Of a DNA stretch of 44,293 bases, positions 13,232-28,200 are shown in pieces. The notes under the pieces are model-generated. The model made no database searches. It saw nothing but the letters and a program-made list of their open reading frames with translations, and was not told where the DNA came from. The DNA is from Parvularia atlantis (lineage: Eukaryota; Opisthokonta; Rotosphaerida): contig CALSCO010000912.1 in assembly GCA_943704415.1 (NCBI GenBank), positions 1 to 44,293 on the forward strand. Direction: 5' to 3'. Position numbers and translations under genes: made by a program. Position 1 is the first letter of the stretch. The number at the start of each line of letters is the position of its first letter.

Positions 13232-13868
13232 ATGGCCGGACTGCCGCCAAAGAACTCGGCCGTGACCGCGTCATCGCTCGCCCTGGGCGACGTCGTCAGC
13301 GACGCGGCGGCGCGCCCGGTCGAGTTGACGCGGCTGACGAGCGCGTTCGACGCGCGCTACGCCTTCGACTTCTTCGACCGGCGCAAGGAGGGCGCAATCT
13401 CGATCAAGGTGCGCCGCGGAGGATGTGCGCGTCTCTCGACTCATCGCACACGCGCGCGTGCAGGACCTCGGCACGCTGCTCGCGCTGCACGGCGTCAACC
13501 CGCGCAGCCCGCGCATCGAGGCGCTCGTGGCGGCCGCGGGCGTGACCGACCGCGTCGCCTTCGCCGCGTTCGAGGCAATCTGCGCCCAGGCCCTGCCCAA
13601 GACGCCGCCCGCCCCCGCGCCCACGGCCGAGCAACTCGCGGCGGCCGTGCGCGACGTCACGTCGTACCTCGCCGCCGCGGCCGCCGACGCCGGCGCGGGC
13701 GCGGACGGGGCGCTGGTCGATTGGGCGCTCGTGCATGGGCCCGATGCGCTGTCCAAGGCCGAGCACAGCCAGCTGCGCCGCCTCGCGCTCACCCAGGGCT
13801 TCGAGCGCGGCGGCCAGGTCGACGTCGAGCGCCTGCTGCTGTCCGAGCCGAGCAAGCCGACGCTCTGA
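13232..13868 (+). CDS. EF-hand-like protein (calmodulin-superfamily, degenerate)
   Basis: The ATG at 13232 gives MAGLPPKNSAVTASSLALGD. A GTGCGC donor after ISIK and a CAG before DLGTLL define one intron; the stop is TGA at 13866-13868. FDARYAFDFFDRRKEGAISI joined to KDLGTLLALHGVNPRSPRIE has the helix-loop-helix pattern of an EF-hand (F..FD....G.I....L...L...G.NP), but the loop has Arg at position 3 and Glu at 5, so calcium binding is doubtful. Later segments (VTDRVAFAAFEAICAQAL; GALVDWALVHGPDALSKAEH) may be further decayed hands. Such proteins include centrin- and myosin-light-chain-like subunits; a specific role is not assigned. It lies 152 bp downstream of RasGAP on the same strand and tail-to-tail with NIPA (62 bp). 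Confidence 0.72.
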
Positions 13869-13930
13869 GCACGCGCGCGCGCCACCGCATTGTGCAAACG
13901 CCCTACACAACGAACGAACATGGGTCAAGA

Positions 13931-14736
13931 TCACAGCTGGTCGTCCTGCACCAGCGACGACAACGGCGATGGGTCGACCGCCTGCGACACCACCGGCGCA
14001 GGCAGCTTGAGTGGCTTGGATGCGTTGAGCGAGACCTGCTCCACGTCGAGCGAGACCTGCTCCACGTCCGGCTCGCCGCGCAGCAGCGGCGTCGCTTCGG
14101 TGCTGCGTCGCAGTTGAGCGATCGCGAACACGCAGCGACGGCAGACAGGCCGCACCTCAGCGCGTCCGACACGCCAAGCTCCTTCGCGTCCGTCTTGGGC
14201 TGCGACAGGAACCAGACGCCGATGAGCATGACGACGATGCCGACGGCGATGAACACGCTGCTGAGCGGGCTGAAGCAGACCCACTATCGCGCCGCGCATC
14301 ATGAGCGTGCGCGTGCGCCTGGCATGCGCTGTGCGCACCTGGTCAAAGTAGACCATCGTCTCGATCATCGAGAGCACCGTGAAGAAGCAGAAAAAGATCG
14401 GTACGACGATGCGCTGCTCGCCCGTGGCCAGCGCCGAGTTGAGGAAGACCATCTGGAACACGCCCACGACCGCGAGCGAGCCCTGCGTCGACCGTGGGCG
14501 CGTCAAGTGAGGCGCGCGGCAGGCACGGCCGGGCGCACCAGGATAAAGTACGTCCCGACGTCGGTGAACTGGTTGTCGTTGTACGTGAACGTGGTGATGC
14601 CGATCTCGACGCTATTGCGCCGTTTCAGCGCACGGCGGGCCGCGGCACAGGCGCGACACGCACGCGGCCTTGCCGAGCAGTAGCACGCTGGCGCCTAGTG
14701 CGCCGGCAATCGTCGCGTGGATGAACGCGCGCCACT
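13931..14736 (-). CDS. NIPA-type magnesium transporter, 3' half (separated from its 5' half by 3.6 kb)
   Basis: Exons read AEWRAFIHATIAGALGASVLLLG-like sequence from 14736, then GITTFTYNDNQFTDVGTYFI, then VVGVFQMVFLNSALATGEQR with IVVPIFFCFFTVLSMIETMV, then FSPLSSVFIAVGIVVMLIG, matching the last four membrane segments of NIPA (DUF803) transporters. NIPA proteins move magnesium and other divalent cations across plasma or endosomal membranes. The tail STEATPLLRGEPDVEQ holds an acidic dileucine-like ATPLL that could be an endosomal sorting signal; the stop is at 13931-13933. Introns begin GTGCGT/GTGCGC. The first acceptor (CAG at 14737-14739) requires an upstream phase-1 donor. The matching first half is at 18405-19345. 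Confidence 0.85.
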
Positions 14737-14746
14737 CTGCCGGTGG

Positions 14747-14766
14747 CCCCCCCCCCCCCCCCCCCC
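14747..14766. repeat. Poly(C) tract, C20, left border of the inserted segment
   Basis: Twenty C residues on the plus strand lie directly upstream of the NIPA intron acceptor. The quinone oxidoreductase gene runs into the same tract from the other side. A second, same-orientation tract at 18328-18350 forms the right border. Confidence 0.95.
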
Positions 14767-14784
14767 TGCCCTGCGGCGACGCAC

Positions 14785-15377
14785 GGGCACGCAGATGTAC
14801 TGCGCGTACGCGCCTGTGAAGCTGCCGCCGTACACCTGCGCGGCCCGCTCTCGTTAGCCTCATGACCGGGTGCACCTCCGCAGTGCGCCCACCTTGTCGC
14901 CAGGCTTGTACTCGTGCACGTTCTTGCCCGCGGCGTCGACGGTGCCGGCAAACTGCGCGTCAATGTGCGATGCAGTCAGCCGGTTCACGAGCACGCGCAG
15001 GTACGTGACGTCGCCACAACCTCGGCGCCGGGGACTGCGATGCCCGGCGGGCGACGTGCGGTGTGAGTGCGAGCGGATGCGCTGCAGCGCCGCGCACTGA
15101 ACGGAAAGGGCGGCTTGAACTGGTACTTGCCCTGGACCTGGAGGATGTCGAAGAAGTTGACGGCGACGGCCTCGACGCGCACGCGCACGGCGTCGTCGTC
15201 GACCTGCGTTCGCGTGCGCGTGCGCAGAGGTTCCACACGTGTGACACTTCACGGCGCGACGCGCGCGCGCGAGGGGAGGCGCACGTCGGGCACGGGCCAG
15301 TCGATCGGCCTGAGCTCGCGCACGGACGAGAGCCATCCGTCCTGCACGACGAGCGCGCGCATCGTGGCCGGTGCCAT
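14785..15377 (-). CDS. Quinone oxidoreductase / zinc-type alcohol dehydrogenase family, N-terminal part only
   Basis: The ATG at 15377 (or 15362, giving MRALVVQDGWLSSVRELRPI) opens a GroES-like domain. Spliced exons give VDDDAVRVRVEAVAVNFFDI, LQVQGKYQFKPPFPF, IPGAEVVA, FAGTVDAAGKNVHEYKPGDK and VYGGSFTGAYAQYICVP, the pattern of NADPH:quinone oxidoreductases (medium-chain dehydrogenase/reductase family). These use NADPH to reduce quinones or enals. The nucleotide-binding Rossmann half is missing: the last exon ends near 14785 and the gene then meets the poly(C) border. Its 3' part is therefore outside this segment or absent. Exons use the same GTGCGC grammar. It starts 32 bp downstream of the GNAT-like stop, on the same strand. 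Confidence 0.8.
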
Positions 15378-15409
15378 CGCTCAACGCAAACAAAGAATAC
15401 ACCGTGCGT

Positions 15410-16366
15410 CTACGCGTCCCACGGCGCCCAGGTGTGCACGGGGTGGGGCCGCAGCTGCGTCATGGCCGAGTGCATCGCCTTGCCCGTCACGCCCAGCAGG
15501 CCCAGCTCGGCGTAGGGCGTGCGCACGAGCAGGTCCCACTCGGCCGCGCGAGCCGGCGCGCCCGTGCGCACGCGCCACTGCTGCGCGATGGCGCCGAGCG
15601 GCAGCAGCGGCGGCATCGACCGCTCGTGCGCGTGCAGGTTGAGGTGCGTGTAGACGCCGCACGCGCCCACGCGGTCCATCATGAACCGCGCCGTAGCCTG
15701 GAACACGGTCTCGCCCTGCCCCTCGACCTCGGCCGCGCCCTCGGCCACGCCCTCGCCCGGCACGTACAGCTGCACGGCCTCGCGCGTCGCCGCGAGAAAG
15801 AGCTCGACCCGGCGCTCGCGCCCACAGCAGCCAAAGCCGTCGATCGTCGCGCCCAGCGCGTCCATCCGCTCGACGACCGTGTCGACCGCGTGGAACATGA
15901 GCGCGGCACCGCGCGACGACGCCACGGCCGCCTTGGTCAGGCGCGCGTCCGGGCCCTCGTCCTCGCTCGGGTCGAGCATGACGTGCGCGCCCACGACCTC
16001 GCCGTCGCCTGTGAGCAGGATGGTCGAGAGCGGGTCGCGCTGGCTCGCGCGCTGCTCGAGCATGTGCAGCATCATCGTGCGCAGGTCCTCGCGCGAGATG
16101 CCCGACTCGTGCGTGAGCGAGTCGCCCGCGAAGAACGCGTCGCCCACGAGCTCGGCCACCGCCGGCACGAGCGCCATCCCGAGCGGCTCGGCGCGCAGGC
16201 CGCCGCGCGCGAGCAGGGCGCGAGCACGCGCGGCGTGCGCGGGCTTCATCCGCGCGAGCACGGCCTCCTGCTCGAGCCGCACGCGCATCGGCGCCCAGAC
16301 CGCCGCCTCAAACTCGCGCGCGAGCGACCGCTGCCACGCCACCCGATCGATCGCCGGCGCAGCCAT
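15410..16366 (-). CDS. GNAT-like N-acyltransferase, single exon (318 aa)
   Basis: An uninterrupted frame from ATG 16366 (MAAPAIDRVAWQRSLAREFE) to TAG at 15410-15412; an upstream in-frame ATG at 16402 would add 12 residues. The core GMALVPAVAELVGDAFFAGD, SGISREDLRTMMLHML, LSTILLTGDGEVVGAHVML resembles the first strands of GNAT acetyltransferases of the arylalkylamine type, in which a helix-rich start is followed by beta4 facing acetyl-CoA. A later segment (ACGVYTHLNLHAHERSMPPL) may form the second lobe. Substrate is unknown. It is one of few genes here with no intron. It stands head-to-head with the LRR gene, with start codons 34 bp apart or overlapping. Confidence 0.6.
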   Translation of the reverse strand: MAAPAIDRVAWQRSLAREFEAAVWAPMRVRLEQEAVLARMKPAHAARARALLARGGLRAEPLGMALVPAVAELVGDAFFAGDSLTHESGISREDLRTMMLHMLEQRASQRDPLSTILLTGDGEVVGAHVMLDPSEDEGPDARLTKAAVASSRGAALMFHAVDTVVERMDALGATIDGFGCCGRERRVELFLAATREAVQLYVPGEGVAEGAAEVEGQGETVFQATARFMMDRVGACGVYTHLNLHAHERSMPPLLPLGAIAQQWRVRTGAPARAAEWDLLVRTPYAELGLLGVTGKAMHSAMTQLRPHPVHTWAPWDA

Positions 16367-16400
16367 CACGCCCCGTGAAGGTCGCAGGGTCGTTTCTGAC

Positions 16401-16465
16401 ATGACGTCCAACGTGCGCGCGGTCGCGGGCGTCGCGGCAACGCAGCGCGTCGGGAGGGCAGCGTC

Positions 16466-16497
<32 letters not shown>

Positions 16498-18319
16498 GGT
16501 CGACGCCGACGCTGCTGCCGGCGGGCCGGCCGAGTGGCGCGGCGGCCGCGCAGGACGGCGGCGGCGCGTCGGACGCTGCGAACGACCAGCGCCAGCCGCC
16601 GCCGCCGCAGCACGACAGCGCAGTCGCACGCGGCGCCACGCCCGCGCGGCTCTCGCGGCAGGCCACGCTCGAGCGCATCGAAGCCTCGCAGCAGCACACG
16701 CTCGACGTCATCTCGTCCTGGGAGGAGAAGCGCAACGCGAACGTGCGGCGGCTGATGGACGCGCTCGCGCGCGACGTGACCGCGCGGCAGCTCAACCTTG
16801 TCGGTGCGCCTCTTTCTCCAGGGGGGGGGGGGGGGGGGGGAGGGCGCTGCTCACGCTGCCGCGCGCGCTCGCGTCCAGAGCTGCACCTCAAGACGGACGG
16901 CCTGCGCCACCTGGCCGAGGCGCTCAAGCGCAACCACGCCCTGCACTCGCTCGTCCTTGGGAGCGCGTTTGGCGGTGCGCGCTCCCGCGCGGCGGGTGCC
17001 GTGTGCCGACGGCCCGTGCGCGCTCAGGCACGATCATCGAGCTCGAGGGCGCGGCGCACCTCGCCTCGGCCCTCGCCGTCAACGCGACGCTGCAGAGCCT
17101 GCAGCTGCAGAGTATGGTGCCCTGGTTTTTGTGGCCGATCACCGGCCCTCACCCGCGACGCCCCGCGCCAGAGTGCGACATCGGCGACAAGGGCATGGCC
17201 CTGCTGGCAGCCGCCCTCGCAACCAACAAGGCGCTCAAGACGCTCGACGTGTCATGTGCGCCGCGGCACCCGCCCGCCGGCGAAGCGCGCGAAACGGTCG
17301 GTCTCAACGCTTCGCCCTCGTTGCAGGGAACCATCTCGGCCCGGCGTCGGCAGAGCACCTCGGCCGCGCGCTCAAGAGCAACACGTGTCTGCTCACGCTC
17401 GTGCTCAACAGTGCGCCCCGGCCGCGCGCGCTCGGGCGCACTGATGCTGACACGCGTGTGCGCGTGTCGCTGGTCGCAGAGAACGCGTTCAAGAGCCAGG
17501 GCGCACAGCACCTCGCCGACGGCCTCTTTGGCAACCGCACGCTCAAGAACCTAAGCCTTGCCAGTGCGTGGTGCCGACGGCTGCCTGGCTCGCGTGCGGC
17601 GTCTCACATCGCCGCGTCAACAGGCAACGGCATCGGGCCTGAGGGCGCCGCGGTCATGAGCAGCGCGCTCCAGAGCAACGGCACGCTGGACAAGCTCGAC
17701 ATGACCGGTGCGTTGCGTGCGGTGGTGCCCTTGCGACGCTGCGTGCCTGAGCATTGCGCTGCCAGGCAACAACCTCGGCGAGCAGGGCGCGCGCTTCTTC
17801 GCCGGCCTGCTCAAGTTTAGCAACGGCCTGACGCACCTGATCTTGACCAGTACGTTGCGCGTCCGTCTGTGCGTGCGTGCACACAACATGTGTCGGCGGC
17901 AGAAAACCACATCGGCAACGAGGGCATCGCGCTCATCGCCGACGCGCTCAAGGTCGACCGCGGGCTGTACTCGCTCGACGTGAGCGGTGCGACCGGCCGC
18001 TGCCTTTTTTTTTTTTTTTTTTTTTTTTGGGGTGCCGCACTCTGACGTGCCCGCGCAGAGAATGGCATCGACTCGGACGGCGTGGCCGCGCTCAGCCAGG
18101 CCATCAAGGTCAACACGACCCTGCGCTCGCTCATCCTCACCGGTGCGCGCTCGGTGTGCAGGCCCGCGGTCGCTCACACGCCATGTGGCACAAATAGGCA
18201 ACAGCATCACGCGCGCCGGCGCGCAGCACCTTGCCGAGGCGCTCTTTGTGCAGTGGGAGAAGATGCACCTGTTGTTTCTCAAGCACCTCGAGTGCGCCGT
18301 CCGAGCGGTGGCATTTTGA
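16401..18319 (+). CDS. Leucine-rich-repeat protein, ribonuclease-inhibitor type, one repeat per exon
   Basis: Exon 1 (16401-16803) encodes a Gly/Ala/Pro-rich start, then RQATLERIEASQQHTLDVIS and a helical region ending ARQLNLVG. Ten LRR exons follow: 16879-16974, 17028-17111, 17172-17255, 17327-17410, 17480-17563, 17624-17707, 17766-17849, 17903-17986, 18059-18142 and the last from 18198 to the TGA at 18317-18319. Repeats read like GNNLGEQGARFFAGLLKFSN + GLTHLILTS, the 28-residue RI/NLRC3 pattern (GN.IG.EGA..LA.AL..N..L..L.L). Introns are all phase 1. No NACHT or kinase domain is present, so a scaffolding or binding role is the most that can be inferred. The last repeat departs from the pattern (QWEKMHLLFLKHLECAV). 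Confidence 0.88.
16821..16840. repeat. Poly(G) tract, G20, in LRR gene intron 1
   Basis: Twenty G residues on the sense strand within the intron that begins GTGCGCCTC at 16804. Coding phase is preserved across it. Confidence 0.95.
18005..18028. repeat. Poly(T) tract, T24, in an LRR gene intron
   Basis: Twenty-four T residues in the intron between the LRR exons 17903-17986 and 18059-18142. It precedes a CTGAC motif and a CAG acceptor and is exceptional in so GC-rich a region. Confidence 0.95.
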
Positions 18320-18327
18320 CGCTCATG

Positions 18328-18350
18328 CCCCCCCCCCCCCCCCCCCCCCC
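18328..18350. repeat. Poly(C) tract, C23, right border of the inserted segment
   Basis: Twenty-three C residues directly after the LRR stop and 54 bp before the NIPA donor on the other strand. Same orientation as the tract at 14747-14766. Confidence 0.95.
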
Positions 18351-18404
18351 GCCCCCGCGGCCGTCAGGCGGGAGGGCCGCATGCGCCGCGCGTTCTGGAC
18401 GCAC

Positions 18405-19345
18405 CGAGCAGCTTGTCGGCCGGGTAGTCGGCGAGCCAGCTCGGCTTGGCGTCGCCGTGTATGCTGCACCACTCGAGGAACCGCCCGAACGAGTAGCTGA
18501 GGACGACGTAAGCGAGGAAGAAGCACATGTAGACAATCATCGTCGGGCTGCCAAAAAGCCGGATCAGCTGGGCGATGTCGAACGCTGCGAGCGCCCGTGA
18601 GCGTGATGCTGCGTCTGCGCAGGCGCGCGACGCACTGCCTTGCGGCGCGTAGCCAAAGTAGGCGATGAGCACGGCGCCGCCCGCGGCCACCAGCGTCCCG
18701 ATGAGGTCCTTGATCGTGAAGCGCTCGCCCAGCATCAAGTAGGCGAAGAGTGCGTTGAACGCGAGTGTGATCGACCCGAGCGGTGCAACGATGCTCGGCG
18801 GGATGAAGACTGGGAGGTGCGGGCGGCACGCATGAGCACGCCGAGAGGGTGACGGCTGCACGCACTCAGCGCGAGCGGTTGCCCGGCTAGCTGGCTGATG
18901 AGGTAGATCCACAGCCCTGCGCGGGCGCGTGGGACGAGCGCGATTGGGCGCAATCGGACGCGATTGGACGCGGCGCACCGACGTGCCACACGGCCATGCG
19001 GTAGACGGGTGTGCGCTGGGGCTCGGGCAGGGCCTGCTGCTTGGCGTGAGCGTACTTCTGCATGGCCATCCTGCGCGCCGCGTGGTTGGGACGCGCGCCG
19101 CCGCCGCCGCCGCCGCCGCCCCGGTCCGATGCGCACCCGAGCGCCTGCAGGCACGATGCGAGGAAGCAGATGATCACGCCCGGGGCGATGCTCGCGCCCA
19201 GGCCCGGCACGGCCCCAATCGGGTCGCCGCTGGCGCCCGCACGTGTCAGGACGCAGCCCTGCTCTGCGCGGCCGCACTTGTCATCGTAGACCACGAGCTC
19301 GACGAGATCGATGCAGAGCGCGTCCAGCGTCGCGTTCTCCGACAT
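18405..19345 (-). CDS. NIPA-type magnesium transporter, 5' half
   Basis: The ATG at 19345 starts MSENATLDALCIDLVELVVY. SIAPGVIICFLASCLQALG is the first membrane segment; YRMAVWHVG, then LWIYLISQLAGQPLALS, then VFIPPSIVAPLGSITLAFNA, LFAYLMLGERFTIKDLIGTL and VAAGGAVLIAYFGYAP follow, the diagnostic NIPA/DUF803 block (compare the family's APASLVAPLGS and GE.F...D..GT). SPTMIVYMCFFLAYVVLSYS is the next segment. The exon ends YPADKLL plus one base at 18405, with donor GTGCGTCC. It pairs in phase with the acceptor at 14737, so this and 13931-14736 are one gene of nine membrane segments. It is head-to-head with the FUSC gene, 215 bp apart. Confidence 0.88.
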
Positions 19346-25245: not shown

Positions 25246-28200
25246 ATGTCAGGCAACTGTCTGGCATCGGACGGGCCGTGCCTCTGCGCGCCCGCCGCGC
25301 CCCCCGCGGCCGCCGCGGCGCGGGCCACGGGCAAGGCGAAGCAGCCGCCACCGCAGCAGCAGCAGCCGAAGCAGCAGCCGCAACAGCAGCGCACCGTCAA
25401 CTCGGTCTTTGCTGACGGTGAGAGCAGAGCAGCACAGCAGCACGTGGCGGCGGCTGACGCGCACGCCGTGCCCCCGCCCGCCAGTGCCAGAGAAGGTCTC
25501 GTTCCCGGGCGAGGAGACGGCGACGCTCGCGTTCTGGGAGGCGATCGACGCGTTCAAGACGTCGCTCAAGATGTCCGAGGGCCGCCCGCCCTACACCTTC
25601 TACGACGGCCCGCCCTTCGCCACGGGCCTGCCGCACTACGGCCACCTGCTCGCGGGCTCGATCAAGGCGCGCGATGCGATGCGGCAGGCATATTGCTGCT
25701 CAGTGGCTGACGACACGCGACGCAGGACATCGTCACGCGCTACTGGCACCAGCAGGGCCGCTACGTCGAGCGCCGCTTCGGATGGGACTGCCACGGCCTC
25801 CCGGTCGAGTACGAGATCGACAAGAAGCTCGACATCAAGGCGCGGCCTCGCCCCCCCCCCCCCCCCCCTTCCCGAAGGATGCAGCGGTGCTGACGGCGCG
25901 CACGCGATCGGCGCGGCCGCGCAGAGCAAGGACGATGTGATCAAGATGGGCATCGCAAAGTACAACGCCGAGTGCCGCGCCATCGTCATGCGCTACGCCA
26001 AGGCACGGGCTCGCCGGTCGACACGCGCGTGGCAGGCCCCCCCTCACGCACCGCGCCGTGCAGGAGTGGGAGGTCACGGTCAAGCGCATCGGCCGCTGGA
26101 TCGACTTCGAGAACGACTACAAGACGCTCAACGCGGACTTCATGGAGTCGGTCTGGTGGGTGTTCTCGGAGATGCACAAGAAGAACCTCGTCTACCGCGG
26201 CTTTAAGGTGCGTGCCAGCGTGACGACGGAGCACGTGCGCATCCCTCGTGACGTGCGTGCACGTGCCCAGGTCATGCCGTACTCGACCGGCTGCACCACG
26301 CCGCTGTCCAACTTCGAGGCCGGCCAGAACTACAAGGACGTTAACGACCCGGCCGGTATGCGGTGCCGCGCCGCGACCCGGTGTGCGTGCCGTGCCTCAC
26401 GCGCGCGGCGCCAGTCATCGTCTCGTTCCCGCTCGTCGACGAGCCCGAGACGCTCGTGCTCGCGTGGACGACGACGCCGTGGACGCTGCCGTCCAACCTC
26501 GCGCTGTGCGTGCACCCGACGTTTGAGTACGTCAAGATCAAGGGTGCGTGCGCGCCTGTGCACTGACGCGCTGCGCCTGCTGACCCGTGCGCACGCGGCA
26601 GACACTGCCACCGGGCAGACGTACATCCTGCTCGAGAAGCGCCTGTCGCAGCTGTACAAGAACCCAGAGAACCAGGAGCAGTACAAGGTGCGCGTCTGTC
26701 GTGTGCGGCGCGCAGAAGCTCACGAGGCCGCAGGTGCTCGACCGCTTTGTGGGAGCCAAGCTCGAGGGCAAGCGCTACCTGCCGCTGTTTGACTACTTCT
26801 ACGAGGCACGCACCCGGCGCGTGTGCTGTGTGCGTGCGTCTGTGCTGAGCGATCGCCGCAGCGCATGAAGGGCACGGCGTTCTGCGTCGTGATGGACACG
26901 TACGTCACGGACGACAGCGGCACGGGCATCGTGCACCAGGCGCCCGCGTTCGGTGAGGACGACTTCCGGTGCACCGCCCTCGTGCGCGTGCCACGCTGCG
27001 CGCTAACCGCAGCACCGCCAGCATTTGCCTCAAGTACGGCGTGTTCGACCGCGAGGAGATCATCTGCCCCGTCGACGAGGTCGGGCGGTTTACGAAGGAG
27101 GTGACGGATTTTGCGGGCAAGTACATCAAGGTGCAGCCTGGTCAGTGCGCCAGCGGGCGCCGTTGCTCACGCGCGCTGGCGGCAGGATGCCGACAAGGAC
27201 ATCACCAAGATGCTCAAGGCGAAGGGGCGCCTCGTTCACAGCGGTACGCTCATGCACTCGTACCCGTTCTGCTGGCGGTGCGCGCGCTGCGCTCAACGGA
27301 CCCGTGCACGGCGGGGCTGAGCGCACGTGTCGACAAGCTCCGACACGCCGCTCATTTACAAGGCCGTGCCGTCGTGGTTCATCCGCGTCGAGCAGCTGGT
27401 CGAGCGCCTGCTGGCCAACAACAAGCAGAGCTACTGGTGCGTGCGCCCGGCCGTGTCACAGCGCTTCTGACGCGGTGCGCGGCCAGGGTGCCCGAGTTTG
27501 TGCAGGAGAACCGCTTCGGCAACTGGCTGCGCGACGCGCGCGACTGGGCCGTCTCGCGCAACCGCTACTGGGGCACGCCGATCCCGCTGTGGGTCAGCAG
27601 CGACGGCGAGGAGGTGCGGTCCGCGAACGTGGCCGCCGTCGTGCTGAGCGCTCAGCCCTCAGATCGTCTGCGTCGAGTCAGTCAAGCACCTCGAAGAGCT
27701 CTCGGGCGTGCGCGTGACCGACCTGCACCGCGAGAGGTACGTACGCACGACGGCCAAGTGTCGGTCGCGATGCTGACGTGCGCCGCAGCATCGACCACAT
27801 CACGATCCCGTCCAAGATGGGCAAGGGCGATCTGCGGCGCGTGGAGGAGGTTTTTGACTGCTGGTTCGAGTCGGGCAGGTGCGGTACAAAGTGGCTCTCA
27901 GAGGAGGCACACAGCTGACCCTGAGCGCGCAGCATGCCCTACGCCCAGCAGCACTACCCGTTCGAGAACCGCACCAAGTTTGAGTCGGCCTTCCCCGCCG
28001 ACTTCATCGCCGAGGGCCTTGACCAGACGCGCGGGTGGTTCTACACGCTGCTCGTCATTTCGACCGCGCTGTTTGACAAGCCGCCGTTCCGCAACCTGAT
28101 CGTCAACGGCCTCGTCCTGGCCGCGGACGGCAAGAAGATGTCCAAGCGCCTCAAGAACTACCCGGACCCGAGCGAGATCCTGAACAAGTACGGCGCCGAC

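Follow-up and report, generated by a model that had tools for sequence, protein, structure and literature searches.

A NIPA-like magnesium transporter gene of Parvularia atlantis (Rotosphaerida) appears to carry three other genes inside one of its introns, and the locus raises the question of whether this nest exists in the organism or was made by the assembler. The window, meaning the whole stretch of 44,293 nucleotides (nt) analysed here, is contig CALSCO010000912.1 (C227) of assembly GCA_943704415.1 (16.25 Mb, 616 contigs), and its GC content is 69.6%. Within it the two halves of the NIPA gene are separated by a 3.58-kb segment holding a quinone-oxidoreductase-like (QOR) gene, a single-exon open reading frame (ORF) and a gene for a leucine-rich repeat (LRR) protein. 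The split is very probably an assembly misjoin at poly(C) tracts. Exons, introns and spliced proteins are throughout predictions from the sequence, and domain matches are matches to Pfam profiles.

The two halves first have to be recognised as one gene, as an earlier note on this DNA had proposed, and the evidence upheld that proposal. The halves match complementary, non-overlapping parts of PF05653, with 48 bits for the 5′ half, 45.3 bits for the 3′ half and 82.4 bits for both joined. Splice sites are present and the frames are open; donor and acceptor are both in phase 1 and give the joined reading DKLL-E-WRAFIHATIAG. Without positions 14767-18350 the intron would be 84 nt long, 64 nt of it outside the tract, with donor GTGCGTCC and a CAG acceptor, so that splicing and phase analysis reproduced the short intron described in the note. 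As assembled, the halves lie 3,668 nt apart, compared with 51-81 nt for the 21 other introns predicted in these genes. This distance of 3.67 kb could be taken to mean that the halves are two pseudogene halves or separate fragments. The complementary domain parts, the matching phase and the paralogue on contig C469, which carries both parts of PF05653 together, speak against that reading, and we regard it as very unlikely. Other NIPA copies occur on C312, C469 and, twice, C54, with all matches of each falling within 0.95-1.18 kb in a search that gives lower bounds. The two C54 copies are opposite in orientation (13246-14253 on the minus strand, 14847-16024 on the plus strand), and one exon scores identically in both; the pair may be an inverted duplicate or a palindromic assembly.

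The poly(C) tracts reported to bound the segment are indeed present at both borders (Table 1), and the joins made there conflict with the genes on either side. The QOR gene starts at 15377, reaches a GTGCG donor at 14784 and then runs into the C20 tract, leaving a remnant of 109 amino acids (aa), compared with chains of 295-389 aa in 42 matched structures. Beyond the tract the phases clash, the QOR donor being in phase 0 and the NIPA acceptor in phase 1, and an intron from QOR to NIPA at 14747 would measure 48 nt in total, or 28 nt without the tract. At 18328 the coding strands of the LRR gene and NIPA oppose each other. As predicted genes, the joins at 14747 and 18328 make no sense. The conflicts of phase and strand and the size of the intron are one set of reasons for which we consider both junctions likely to be false.

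Table 1. Predicted genes, gene parts and homopolymer tracts at the interrupted NIPA locus (window coordinates)
Feature	Position	Strand	Remarks
NIPA 3′ half	13931..14736 (exons from 14736)	-	PF05653 176-292
Interrupted NIPA intron, acceptor side	14737..14746	-	CCACCGGCAG
C20 tract	14747..14766	+	Proposed false join, NIPA 3′ half to QOR 5′ half
QOR gene, first five predicted exons	14785..15377	-	109 aa; ADH_N only; cut at donor GTGCGTCG
Intact single-exon ORF	15410..16366	-	318 aa; no Pfam match
LRR protein gene	16401..18319	+	11 predicted exons; in-frame stop 18317-18319
G20 tract in LRR intron 1	16821..16840	+	Reading consistent across the tract; no spanning domain as proof
T24 tract in an LRR intron	18005..18028	+	Repeat pattern carries on across the tract
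C23 tract	18328..18350	+	Proposed false join, LRR gene to NIPA 5′ half; opposite coding strands
Interrupted NIPA intron, donor side	18351..18404	-	GTGCGTCC ... CTGAC ...
NIPA 5′ half	18405..19345	-	Placed by splicing and PF05653 6-156, E 1.3e-12
NIPA 5′ half, five predicted exons	19345-19137, 19070-18979, 18916-18866, 18809-18636, 18584-18405	-	

A second set of reasons comes from the rest of the assembly, which breaks at some poly(C/G) tracts. Contigs C80, C139, C445, C463 and C480 start in a G run and C191 starts in a C run, and the tracts that open C191 and C445 each interrupt a named gene. By chance, the first 34 nt of the 616 contigs should hold only 0.28 of the 214 tracts counted, and the probability of finding five there is about 1e-5. 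At two further junctions the genes that meet do not belong together. At C75:41054 the 3′ half of GOLPH3, on the minus strand, meets the 3′ half of a plus-strand gene that we read as CDC5L-like, with a Myb_Cef match (E 0.001) under the Pfam cut-off. The 5′ half of GOLPH3 is found at the start of C191, where it ends at a donor followed by C18. The only PF05719 matches found in the genome are C191:42-194(-), adjoining this C18 start, and C75:40504-41020(-). The two halves match GPP34 1-52 and 58-141, and the rejoined protein aligns with Vps74 in a single alignment through the break (208 bits).

The other junction, C19:12649, joins a Vps45-like gene that stops at a donor to the 5′ part of SND1 on the opposite strand, and the 3′ part of SND1 adjoins the poly-G start of C445. 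Taken alone, the 5′ part matches SNase and no TUDOR domain, and the 3′ part matches TUDOR 57-117 with 66.2 bits; joined, they match TUDOR 5-117 with 84.6 bits, and the joined protein can be aligned in one piece, across the break, with the SND1 structure PDB 3bdl. For GOLPH3 and SND1 alike, both sides of the break read as phase 0. The junctions at C75:41054 and C19:12649 look chimeric by gene content, and we infer that they are assembly errors. In strand pattern, C19 resembles position 18328 of the window if the LRR gene is cut there, with gene beginnings face to face; at C75 two gene ends stand back to back. Contigs that start in tracts, together with two junctions of wrong content whose fitting half starts another contig, also lead us to treat the window's junctions as probably false.

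A misjoin could have arisen as follows. The 3.58-kb segment would be absent from the NIPA intron in the organism, and real poly(C/G) tracts of about 20 nt would lie in NIPA, in QOR and within the LRR gene or in its 3′ flank. The assembler would have taken these tracts as one repeat and made a wrong turn on leaving the NIPA 3′ half. Its path would then have run through the piece carrying QOR, the ORF and the LRR gene, back into poly(C) and out into the NIPA 5′ half. This path through the assembly graph is one that we infer.

Several observations weigh against a misjoin. The two NIPA halves share a contig and follow each other in the correct order, which a real insertion would explain equally well. 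Outside the window, 2 of the 67 tracts examined were recognised as chimeric, a judgement possible only where a clear gene lay on both sides, and the misjoining error therefore looks rare. Strand discordance occurred at 8 of 54 tracts, only somewhat above the 74 of 972 seen at ordinary points of the window and the fetched loci. Finally, profile searches with PF00107 and PF13602 and tblastn searches did not find a QOR 3′ half beside a tract.

Strand discordance was set aside as a measure of misjoining because it is too blunt. Of seven discordant tracts inspected elsewhere in the assembly, two are taken as chimeric (L080 and L039), two read as lying in continuous genes (L094, which is U2AF35, and L053) and three are at seemingly intergenic sites (L067, L072 and L087).

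The search for the missing QOR 3′ half returned PF00107 matches on nine contigs. The flanks of six of these contigs were inspected and show different ADH-type genes, each having its own 5′ part and lacking a tract; the inspection left out C193 and C552, as well as a weak PF13602 match on C41. One PF00107 match, on C12, adjoins a tract of 25 C and was rejected as the QOR 3′ half, because it is a Zn-ADH gene that continues across the tract. A tblastn search with this genome's QOR pieces against 73 fetched loci gave no new candidate. Every contig for which a length was listed exceeds 10 kb (the smallest is 10,022). Short contigs may therefore have been removed from the assembly, and the missing half may be on one of them.

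The earlier note had offered two readings of the locus. A join by the assembler at poly(C) has gained from the two chimeric-looking junctions with partners at contig starts, and homopolymer-mediated insertion has gained no positive evidence. Such an insertion would have recombined a poly(C)-bounded piece, extending from the QOR intron to the LRR 3′ side, into poly(C) in the NIPA intron. That intron would then be 3.67 kb long, with the cut QOR gene, the intact ORF and the LRR gene inside it. The same orientation of the C tracts at both borders fits recombination of a one-tract circle, the segment occurs only once in the assembly, and the QOR 3′ half was not found in the searches made. G/C tracts can also be fragile, as when DOG-1 is lost in C. 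elegans (PMC2211496). Against insertion, the same signature at two other tracts is accompanied by the fitting gene half at a contig start, and the NIPA intron would exceed the longest of the 21 other predicted introns about 45-fold. A real insertion is, in our judgement, unlikely. A broader form of this idea takes intronic poly(C) tracts to be real recombination points that move gene blocks between introns, with NIPA truly holding such a block and the other chimeric junctions being real rearrangements or allele differences; we find it improbable as well.

Genes lying within another gene's intron are known as nested genes, and the NIPA locus has the same appearance. It differs in that each border is formed by a homopolymer, where assembly seems to fail, and in that one of the contained genes is cut there. 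Genes contained in such a nest would be complete; of the QOR gene only the first 109 aa are kept.

The earlier note described the genes of the segment as three foreign genes, one of them truncated at the border. The truncation was confirmed, the QOR gene being cut at the tract with its ADH_N domain only, the ORF intact and the LRR gene possibly complete. The foreign origin was not borne out. In a codon model whose training sequence included the segment, the ORF and the LRR gene score like the neighbouring genes and the QOR gene is patchier; the intervening genes look native. The LRR frame passes a possible donor at 18292 and then meets a stop. Because this stop is in frame, the gene may be complete; alternatively, it may be cut at the tract. 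Eight of its 11 predicted exons are exactly 84 nt long, each corresponding to one 28-aa repeat. For the 318-aa ORF, no relatives were found in viral_contigs or genome_contigs.

A transposable element carrying these genes and inserted in the NIPA intron would account for a discrete segment within an intron. No repeats common to both borders, besides the C tracts, were found among 14 direct families and the longest 25 of 59 inverted pairs. The assembly holds no second copy of the segment, and Pfam revealed no transposase in its three genes. We consider a transposable element extremely improbable.

C tracts are common across this genome and are not peculiar to the NIPA site. Runs of at least 18 C number at least 214, or about 13 per Mb, of which 45 are preceded by T, 136 by G and 33 by A. 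From base composition only about 0.12 such runs would be expected in 16.25 Mb, and the tracts are therefore not due to chance. The window has C/G tracts at 14747, 16821, 18328, 25851 and 36766.

To characterise the tracts, we used 72 C/G tracts of at least 15 nt with sufficient flank in the fetched loci, a non-random choice made blind to content. Coding chains lie on both sides, via a GT-YAG intron, at 51 of the 72, and the donor is GTGCG in 36 of these 51. This arrangement is no proof of continuity, because window position 14747 and C75:41054 also pass. The tract-bearing introns of the sample are 48-140 nt long (median 79), and the base of the tract on the coding strand is C in 30 and G in 21. 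Domains that span a tract were sought by a Pfam scan of 40 of 49 predicted splices (without L073, L076 and L088-L094), after window 14747 and L080 had been removed as mismatches. In 21 of the 40 cases (5, 5, 7 and 4 by batch) a single Pfam domain extends across the tract. These domains include tRNA-synt_1 (window 25851), PI3_PI4_kinase, myosin head, actin, Sec1, a fatty acid synthase domain, PP2C and AAA. As one domain crosses each of these tracts, they sit harmlessly in introns and are correctly assembled. The 19 cases with no spanning domain mostly have no match or a one-sided match; at L086, AMP_N lies left of the tract and M24 right of it.

The poly(C/G) tracts themselves look real, and they are denser than the published figure for C. 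elegans. An origin as artificial poly-G read tails is not favoured, because the sampled tracts are mostly between splice sites and tracts of T24 and A33 occur too.

The closest parallel is Caenorhabditis, for which PMC2211496 reports 396 poly-G/poly-C tracts of at least 18 nt in 100 Mb, far above chance. Nearly all lie outside exons and many are intronic, with C on the coding strand in 84 and G in 47. When C. elegans lacks the DOG-1 helicase, deletions arise that begin in these G/C tracts (PMC2211496; Zhao, O'Neil and Rose 2007). The two genomes are alike in having C/G runs of at least 18 nt far above chance, many of them in introns and more often C than G on the coding strand. They differ in density, with about 13 tracts per Mb here and 396 in 100 Mb there, and the present genome is further set apart by a GC content of about 70% and by sampled tract-bearing introns of only 48-140 nt. 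For Physarum polycephalum, gaps in the assembly have been attributed in part to large homopolymer tracts (PMC4758236). Homopolymers are blamed in both assemblies, for gaps there and, as we propose, also for false joins here. Among the literature matches listed, none dealt directly with misjoining at homopolymers.

At face value, the contig shows genes nested within an intron as well as an enzyme gene cut short, and annotating it so would be false on both counts. The gene-inside-a-gene arrangement at NIPA is probably not a real feature. At least two conserved genes of the assembly, GOLPH3 and SND1, seem to have been split in the same way, and wherever one of its more than 200 poly(C/G) tracts lies nearby, gene content and synteny therefore need checking. 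The more interesting biology lies in the tracts, which look real, occur about 13 times per Mb and are mostly intronic in our sample.

Three individual tracts have features of their own. In the IleRS gene of the window (25840-25924), C18 lies in what reads as a GC-AG intron, and it is this tract that tRNA-synt_1 crosses. At L063, near position 495 (C391:8724), a C20 tract has a FYVE domain on its left and, on the same strand, an Ost-alpha transporter domain on its right; the two may be neighbours, a fusion or a further misjoin. At the start of C538 (L072, positions 1-236), a TnpB/Cas12f1-like TNB fragment (PF07282, E 1e-7) adjoins a G24 tract.

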